This document shows, in pieces, positions 1,350-3,095 of a stretch of DNA of 33,738 nucleotides. The stretch spans positions 1-33,738 of the forward strand of contig CALMYZ010000010.1 in NCBI GenBank assembly GCA_937873745.1, read 5' to 3'. Source of the DNA: an uncultured Candidatus Saccharibacteria bacterium. GTDB lineage: Bacteria; Patescibacteriota; Saccharimonadia; Saccharimonadales; Saccharimonadaceae. The notes below the pieces were generated by a model. That model saw nothing but the letters and a program-made list of their open reading frames with translations. It did not search any database and was not told where the DNA came from. A program made the translations under genes and the position numbers. Numbering within the stretch: the first letter of the stretch is position 1; each line of letters begins with the position of its first letter.

Positions 1350-2930
1350 ATGGCGGGCAAGAAGAAAGCGATAATCTTTGCCCGAGTATCGACGAAACGG
1401 CAAGAAAAAGAGGGGCTATCGCTCAAAGAAATACAGCTTCCGATACTGCAAAAGTACACAAAAGATAATGATTTCGAGGTCGTCGAAGTATTTGCGTTAA
1501 GCGAAACAGGTGGCGACAGAAAAGAGCGTGCCAAGTTTGACCGCATGGTCGAACTACTCAAAAAGCGAAAAGATATTACGGAAATCGTATCATTTCGAGT
1601 TGATAGGATTACCCGCAATTTTCGGGACGCTGTTGTTATGGACGAGATGCGTATAGCTCACGATAAATATATTCATTGCGTCGATGATAGGCTTGTACTT
1701 CACAGAGAAAGCCCCGCTCGTGATTTGACGCAATGGAACGTAAAAGTATTCGTCGCTCAAGAGTATATCAATCGTGTTATCGAAGATGGAAACAATACAA
1801 AACTAAACAAGCTAGAGCGTGGCGAACTGCCATGGGCTGCACCATTTGGCTACAAGCACCACAAGTTCGAAGATAAGCGAAAGACTATTGTATCGGTTCA
1901 GCCAAACGCTCAGATAGTACGAGAAATCCATGTTCGATATTCGACAGGCTCTTATTCGTGTCAGTCGCTCGCACAAGAAATCAGCAACGAGTTCAGCATG
2001 AAACTAACTAAGGGCCAAATACAGCGTGTTCTTCGTGATAGGTTCTACATAGGCATAATGACAGACAAGAAAACGGGCAAAGAATACCCGCATTTCTATG
2101 AAAAGCTTGTTAGCGATGATATGTTCGAGCGGAATCAGGACATTTTGAATGGTCATAGCGGGCGACGACAGCGTTATGCTGGCCTACCGTCGATTTACCG
2201 AGGGCTTATTCGATGCAAGTTTTGCGGTTGTACAATCACGCCAGAAAAGAAGCAGAAGAAACAAAAAAACGGCAATGTGCATAATTACTATTACTACCAC
2301 TGTACGAATGGCAAGAAAATGCACACCGCACCAATACAGTACGCTACCGAAAAGGACTTGAATGACGCAATGTCGCAAATCCTTAAAGACTTTCGCATTT
2401 CCGAAGAAAAACTTGCCGAAGTACGACAGGCACTCAACGAAAGCCATGCGGACAAAAACAGCTTTTATGAAGCCAAACGCAAAGAATTAGTTGCTCGACG
2501 TAAACAACTTTCGAACCGCAAGCAAAATATGTATGACATGCTCGCCGATAAGTGTATTACTCCGCAAGAATATAACGAAAATAACGCACGTTACGACGAT
2601 GAAATCGCCGATGTACGCCGTCAAGAACAGCGACTAGACGAAGCCGATAAACAGTTCTATGTAACAGCTGGCTATCTGTTAGCTATATTTCAGTATGCCG
2701 AAAAGATATTTGAAGCCGCCGAAATCGAAGAAAAACGCCAAATCATCGGATTGCTACTCTCGAACCTCCAATTAGACGGCAAAAGACTGTATTTTACACT
2801 AAAAGAGCCGTTTGCAAATGTGCTTTCGCACGCAAACGGTTCTTTATGGCTGGGGATGAGGGATTCGAACCCCCGATCACGGGACCAGAACCCGGTGCCT
2901 TACCACTTGGCCAATCCCCAGTATAGGTAG
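1350..2930 (+). CDS. Large serine recombinase / integrase
   Basis: This 526-aa protein is a site-specific serine recombinase, expected to integrate and excise the element. The resolvase domain is N-terminal, with the nucleophile Ser14 in FARVSTKRQ and RVDRITRNFRD further on. A recombinase domain follows (ELPWAAPFGYK, about 165-175), then a zinc ribbon beginning RCKFCGC and closing with a further cysteine, then a charged coiled coil (about residues 360-430). From about residue 500 the frame runs antisense through tRNA-Gln, giving the GMRDSNPRSRDQNP tail that often ends recombinases inserted at tRNA genes. This suggests that the attachment site lies at or in the tRNA. A terminator-like hairpin lies inside the last codons before the tRNA. 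Codon use is more A-rich than in the chromosomal genes to the right. Confidence 0.92.
   Translation: MAGKKKAIIFARVSTKRQEKEGLSLKEIQLPILQKYTKDNDFEVVEVFALSETGGDRKERAKFDRMVELLKKRKDITEIVSFRVDRITRNFRDAVVMDEMRIAHDKYIHCVDDRLVLHRESPARDLTQWNVKVFVAQEYINRVIEDGNNTKLNKLERGELPWAAPFGYKHHKFEDKRKTIVSVQPNAQIVREIHVRYSTGSYSCQSLAQEISNEFSMKLTKGQIQRVLRDRFYIGIMTDKKTGKEYPHFYEKLVSDDMFERNQDILNGHSGRRQRYAGLPSIYRGLIRCKFCGCTITPEKKQKKQKNGNVHNYYYYHCTNGKKMHTAPIQYATEKDLNDAMSQILKDFRISEEKLAEVRQALNESHADKNSFYEAKRKELVARRKQLSNRKQNMYDMLADKCITPQEYNENNARYDDEIADVRRQEQRLDEADKQFYVTAGYLLAIFQYAEKIFEAAEIEEKRQIIGLLLSNLQLDGKRLYFTLKEPFANVLSHANGSLWLGMRDSNPRSRDQNPVPYHLANPQYR
2801..2845 (-). terminator. Hairpin terminator downstream of tRNA-Gln
   Basis: CCGTTTGC (2808-2815) pairs perfectly with GCAAACGG (2832-2839), with an inner GTGC/GCAC stem closed by TTTC and a 4-nt bulge. 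On the minus strand the stem is followed by CTCTTTTA, giving a rho-independent terminator 7 nt after the tRNA CCA end. The plus side is also T-rich (TTCTTTAT), so it may work in both directions. It lies inside the recombinase reading frame. Confidence 0.7.
2847..2920 (-). tRNA. tRNA-Gln (anticodon CUG), CCA encoded
   Basis: The minus strand folds as a tRNA: acceptor TGGGGAT/ATCCCCA, discriminator G, encoded CCA (2847-2849), D arm GCCAAGTGGTAAGGC, anticodon loop TTCTGGT giving CUG (glutamine CAG codon) and T arm GGGGG-TTCGAAT-CCCTC with one G-U pair. The outer pair of the anticodon stem (C/T) appears mismatched. The discriminator G and the TGGGG start match bacterial tRNA-Gln. The recombinase 3' end overlaps it antisense. 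Confidence 0.93.
2892..2920 (-). repeat. 29-bp direct repeat, copy 1 (5' part of intact tRNA-Gln)
   Basis: This is the first 29 nt of the intact tRNA gene and is identical to 3019-3047. Identity stops exactly at the tRNA 5' end on one side and inside the anticodon stem on the other. It may be an attachment-site repeat. Confidence 0.85.
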
Positions 2931-3018
2931 TTTATCGTCATGTCGGACTGATAATTTGTAACGTACTGGCCCCGTACGGGACTAATGTTGATCTACTCGG
3001 TCGATAGACCTCGGACAG
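2921..3018. other. 98-bp spacer with palindromes between tRNA and tRNA fragment
   Basis: No gene is visible. It contains a perfect 10-bp palindrome CCCGTACGGG (2971-2980) and an inverted repeat GGTC-GATA-GACC (2999-3010). It lies between two copies of the tRNA 5' half, so it may be a recombination footprint or the end of an element. This is inference. Confidence 0.5.
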
Positions 3019-3047
3019 CCGGTGCCTTACCACTTGGCCAATCCCCA
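3019..3047 (-). repeat. 29-bp direct repeat, copy 2 (orphan tRNA-Gln 5' fragment)
   Basis: Identical to tRNA nucleotides 1-29 of the intact copy, but what follows cannot fold into an anticodon or T arm, so it is not a tRNA. It lies 19 nt downstream of a good minus-strand promoter, as expected for the original 5' end of the chromosomal tRNA gene. Confidence 0.85.
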
Positions 3048-3066
3048 TCGCTGTTACCGGTATTAG

Positions 3067-3095
3067 ATTGTACTATAATTTGATGATTTGCTCAA
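3067..3095 (-). promoter_or_regulatory. Minus-strand promoter for the tRNA-Gln region
   Basis: On the minus strand TTGAGC (3090-3095) and TACAAT (3067-3072) are separated by 17 nt. Transcription should begin near 3060, just ahead of the tRNA 5' fragment, then run through the spacer into the intact tRNA and its terminator. Confidence 0.65.

Follow-up and report, generated by a model that had tools for sequence, protein, structure and literature searches.

T-box riboswitches, which are located before aminoacyl-tRNA synthetase and amino-acid genes, are leader RNAs that read a tRNA by codon-anticodon pairing and use a UGGN bulge to sense its uncharged 3' end. The tandem rtT repeats at the E. coli tyrT locus include part of the neighboring tRNA, whose 3' end recurs downstream. 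Introns that pair with the anticodon occur in tRNAs of archaea and eukaryotes, and integrative elements that use tRNA genes have a partial tRNA copy beside the integrase gene as attachment site. The usual view of the tRNA genes themselves is that promoter strength and growth-rate control govern them and that RNase P removes their leaders as waste.

The leader described here, found upstream of tRNA-Gln genes in Candidatus Saccharibacteria, resembles a T-box in that a cognate codon, CAA or CAG, stands opposite the anticodon. However, the gene downstream is the tRNA itself, not a synthetase, transporter or biosynthesis gene, the complementarity spans about 9 to 14 nt, and the T-box covariance model of Rfam found no match in the window at E values of 5 or less, nor in ten loci at E values of 2 or less. 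As in rtT, a piece of the adjoining tRNA is repeated, but it is the 5' half, it lies upstream, and it is accompanied by a conserved hairpin and an antisense sequence. As with tRNA introns, a stretch of the precursor is complementary to the anticodon loop; a splicing model was nevertheless rejected, as the downstream tRNA is complete and canonical, and thus needs no splicing, whereas some half copies are degenerate, with diverged D-arms. The partial tRNA copy is shared with tRNA-gene integrative elements and their attachment sites, yet here it also exists without an integrase, that is, not only at past or present insertions, and holds a conserved RNA structure. Searches of Rfam returned nothing beyond tRNA in the window or the loci tested, and the open-licence literature held nothing relevant on tRNA-gene leaders or tRNA introns in Saccharibacteria. 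With no Rfam family and no report found in that literature, the leader is most likely previously undescribed.

The window, the whole stretch of 33,738 nucleotides analyzed, carries an intact tRNA-Gln(CUG) on the minus strand at positions 2847 to 2920 (ARAGORN; Rfam RF00005, 58.4 bits). A sequence-only reading of positions 2847 to 3095 had reported that nucleotides 1 to 29 of this tRNA are repeated exactly 127 nt upstream, behind a strong promoter, and both its coordinates and these two observations were confirmed. Direct-repeat comparison placed the two 29-nt copies at 2892 to 2920 and 3019 to 3047 (minus strand; start-to-start distance, 127), with a local score of 58 compared with a maximum of 19 in 200 shuffles, so that the exact match is far beyond chance. 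By direct reading, the −35 element TTGAGC (3090 to 3095, minus strand) is separated by 17 nt from the −10 element TACAAT (3067 to 3072, minus strand), which lies 19 nt before the half copy, and the strength of this promoter equals that of the promoters of leaderless tRNA-Gln genes. Between the two copies there are also a conserved hairpin, GGUC-UAUC-GACC (2999 to 3010, minus strand), flanked by CUGUCCGA and CGAGUAGAUCA and identified by covariation, and an antisense of the anticodon arm, TACGGGGCCAGTAC (2963 to 2976, minus strand), which includes the codon CAG and has one mismatch to the arm. The antisense scored 27.0 for complementarity (shuffle P = 0.002) and gave a duplex of −22.5 kcal/mol compared with a shuffle mean of −17.1 kcal/mol, with 6% of shuffles equally good; the same bases also belong to a small palindrome, CCCGTACGGG. 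A spacer (2921 to 2962, minus strand), in which the promoter signal was not above the shuffled level, separates the antisense from the tRNA.

We favor, with some reserve, a reading in which the truncated copy opens the 5' leader of pre-tRNA-Gln, a tRNA-derived structured RNA that recurs in Candidatus Saccharibacteria and would limit or buffer tRNA-Gln through pairing with its anticodon arm. The parts of this statement differ in strength. That the half-tRNA unit is a selected, structured leader is very probable; a regulatory role through anticodon-arm pairing is the likeliest use of it suggested by the sequence comparisons, although unproven.

The other tRNA-Gln gene of this genome (UUG, contig C66) has a half copy 123 nt upstream, in the same layout as that of the CUG gene. 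In a census of 113 tRNA-Gln loci of relatives, the layout was identified in 12, with longer pseudo-tRNA copies present in about nine. A sequence model built from the 12 leaders was then run against 393 genomes, mostly metagenome-derived or fragmented assemblies, and found full-length leaders in about 24 of them; each of the matches inspected was upstream of a tRNA-Gln gene. In its final form the set covers 25 genomes and 28 leaders, two of them at the tRNA-Gln genes of this genome and 26 in related Saccharibacteria; each leader precedes a tRNA-Gln gene. Given its patchy presence (12 of 113 loci, about 24 of 393 genomes), the leader is not essential to the group. When the leader pattern was searched across 84,980 species, six leaders were found, all before tRNA-Gln. 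Five of their records bear the name Candidatus Saccharibacteria, the sixth is labeled simply "bacterium," and none of the six carries the name of a different phylum. Two further chance matches in the same scan had no tRNA nearby.

The order of parts is promoter, half tRNA (nucleotides 1 to 29 or 30), CUGUYYGAG-hairpin-CGAGUAAAUCA, GUCC, the anticodon-arm antisense, about 40 nt, and the intact tRNA, with about 115 to 150 nt from the start of the half copy to the start of the tRNA. In 22 of the 28 leaders the copied acceptor strand is identical to that of the leader's own tRNA at all seven positions, a match that could come from gene conversion. Compensatory base changes were found in the helix of the leader hairpin: across 17 leaders, in alignments partly made by hand and with related sequences inflating the counts, 97% of cells were paired, with 16 two-sided changes, a result that no shuffle out of 500 equaled. 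The covariation score was 0.665 versus 0.149, and slid controls were at most 45% paired. A second subfamily of leaders, mostly at CUG genes, has a different hairpin. The antisense follows the gene downstream, with CCAAAA at UUG genes and CCAG at CUG genes; accordingly worded in codons, CAA is present in nearly all leaders of UUG genes (the exceptions being L073 and L151) and CAG in all leaders of CUG genes. The mean energy of the duplex between antisense and anticodon arm was −21.1 kcal/mol, compared with −13.0 kcal/mol for shuffles, and the ungapped antisense score had a shuffle P value of ≤0.022 in 27 of the 28 leaders.

The mean promoter score before the half copy was 8.37 (shuffled, 7.11), compared with 8.51 before leaderless tRNA-Gln genes (shuffled levels for the two, about 7.1 to 7.2), while the stretch between the leader antisense and the tRNA scored 6.83, near the shuffled level of 6.61. 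The sequence-only reading had noted a good promoter only at the broken copy, and this holds as a mean over leaders, the 60 nt before the intact tRNA being no better than shuffled sequence; weak or nonconsensus promoters may still lie between leader and tRNA. At two loci of the same genus, L149 and L028, the promoter is common to both and the leader is found only in L149, between promoter and tRNA. Since the promoter precedes the half copy, the intact tRNA would depend on read-through and 5' processing, as the sequence-only reading had proposed; read-through is well supported at the level of sequence by the promoter scores and the L149/L028 comparison.

Leader and tRNA would thus be transcribed together from the upstream promoter, with RNase P or another nuclease then cutting the intact tRNA out of the read-through RNA. 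The antisense may pair with the anticodon arm either in cis, while the transcript is being made, or in trans, on mature tRNA-Gln molecules, and the half copy may serve as a competing strand or a decoy, so that the leader would set, limit or buffer the amount of free tRNA-Gln. It is because the anticodon-arm complementarity and the covarying hairpin stand out that we infer an action through this pairing; the present data would fit cis and trans pairing alike. Anticodon-loop pairing with the leader was predicted at 0.72, compared with 0.26 with a shuffled spacer, but cis pairing of the whole leader lowered the folding energy by hardly more than in the control (−7.0 versus −5.8 kcal/mol shuffled). 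Folding energy of the leader by itself was no better than shuffled in the two leaders tested. A chimeric cloverleaf, formed from the copied acceptor strand and the 3' strand of the tRNA, was the best predicted fold in most loci; it was rejected as evidence because shuffled spacers gave it equally often, and pairing between these two strands is a trivial outcome of the duplication.

A reading on which the leader has no host function was also weighed. Small mobile or self-spreading RNA-like elements might insert in tRNA copies, the intact tRNA surviving by duplication and the leader being a tolerated parasite. The patchy presence fits this, as do tandem leader copies in L047, L150 and L181 and the finding that pseudo-tRNAs before Gln, Glu, Lys, Phe and Leu genes carry differing inserts at differing positions, which recur in G015 and G400. 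We nonetheless consider it unlikely, as the antisense stays complementary to its particular downstream tRNA, the inspected leaders all lie at one place, between promoter and tRNA, and the hairpin is under pairing constraint. It is also rather improbable that the leader is processed off as a trans-acting small RNA, a sponge that binds the anticodon loops of tRNA-Gln, or a shield or bait against a tRNA-cleaving toxin. The duplex energy with the mature anticodon arm, well above control where the cis gain was not, speaks for such a role; the leader, however, always lies beside its own tRNA gene, with no separate terminator or promoter shown and no evidence for a toxin.

The sequence-only reading had preferred a crossover inside the anticodon stem, by which a serine-integrase element left the original 5' half of tRNA-Gln behind and brought an intact replacement tRNA with it. 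A large serine recombinase gene of an adjoining integrative element does lie next to the tRNA, convergent with it (1350 to 2930, plus strand; Pfam Resolvase, Recombinase and Zn_ribbon_recom; phrog_95 integrase, 1e−53), and comparison of its tail showed the final 27 codons to be antisense to the tRNA gene. Integrases are found at several other tRNA-Gln genes as well. The closest relative of the leader, in G397 (L141), was initially taken as an integrase-free counterexample and was dropped, as a longer contig shows a serine recombinase 1.5 kb downstream there too.

The locus itself, with the order tRNA-Gln CUG, PAP2, RmuC, MIP-like, PheS, PheT, has syntenic counterparts in G363 and G050 and exists in three states: neither leader nor integrase (G050), leader alone (G363), and leader plus integrase (this genome). 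Comparison with relatives that lack the element thus found the same arrangement in G363, twice in tandem, with no serine integrase in 7 kb downstream. Over 102 loci, an integrase was beside 1 of 9 loci with a leader and 16 of 93 others (Fisher P = 1), a lack of association that applies to relatives of the three serine recombinases used as queries, other recombinase types not being excluded everywhere. The UUG gene of this genome shows the same layout with no integrase visible in its 4.4-kb contig, which ends 125 nt after the tRNA. The displaced 3' half of the tRNA, which the sequence-only reading had proposed to look for, was not found in the assembly (about 89% complete), nor was a complementary tRNA fragment at the other end of the element, the contig starting inside the element. 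A covarying RNA structure common to many genera is not predicted by a crossover scar, and together with the G363 locus and the lack of association it makes that origin very improbable. The duplication is most likely a conserved RNA element and not the scar of the neighboring mobile element, and we judge the serine integrase of the window to be a layer separate from the leader. A remnant of an earlier insertion, the alternative first put forward alongside the crossover, could, strictly speaking, still be the ultimate origin of the half copy.

Diverse large serine recombinases often adjoin tRNA-Gln in this order, frequently convergent and with their last codons overlapping the tRNA; in addition to the window, such loci are L029, L030, L031, L045, L050, L054, L063, L064, L074, L079, L090, L094, L102, L104, L120, L123 and L126. 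In L130 and L055, extra copies of the tRNA 3' end (CCCCAGCCA) lie just downstream of the tRNA and are likely attachment-site remnants. The element in the window also encodes a 336-amino-acid protein (139 to 1149) with no Pfam, NCBIfam or PHROG match. Positions 1 to 45, at the start of the contig, resemble an Illumina adapter (TTTCCCTACACGACG...TTCCGATCT), and the left assembly end, inside the integrative element, is therefore probably an artifact.

Such leaders are not confined to Gln genes. When the remaining tRNAs of this genome were examined with a cruder test, the signals were only marginal, but inspection of exact matches then identified one tRNA-Phe gene and two tRNA-Leu genes with pseudo-tRNA 5' copies upstream, in which the D-loop is replaced by CTGCGTGAAACGCAA(A/G)TATTC-like hairpins. 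These are at L168 (8752 to 8827 and upstream), L174 (2055 to 2141) and L175 (299 to 386), on contigs C48, C47 and C4, with the hairpin near CTGCGTGAAACGCAARTATTC. In G015, G400 and G056, related leaders precede Glu, Lys, Phe, Leu and Gln genes and contain a domain of roughly 110 nt, GTGAG-hairpin-CGCAAGG...GACTGAGGCG..., with several copies per genome. This domain interrupts the pseudo-tRNA at the D-loop, the anticodon loop or the T-stem, and antisense of the same tRNA often comes after it; in the loci tested, Rfam matched nothing other than tRNA. It is possible, although we lean against it, that these belong to a general system of Saccharibacteria in which Gln, Phe, Leu, Glu and Lys tRNA genes have leaders made of a mimic of their own 5' half, structured inserts and an antisense of the same tRNA, giving self-referential control of individual tRNA supply.

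If the preferred reading is true, tRNA genes in this phylum of very small genomes would be controlled in a new way, through a selected leader in which a partial copy of the tRNA is combined with an anti-anticodon. Partial tRNA copies beside integrases, moreover, need not be attachment sites.

The domain of roughly 110 nt was observed within pseudo-tRNAs at L064, L130, L055, L045, L087, L112, L193, L194, L197, L198 and L199. Some tRNA genes also have it a short distance downstream, behind T-arm-like sequence (L192, position 6258; L193, 11757; L194, 1030; L195, 982; and L196, 1015).
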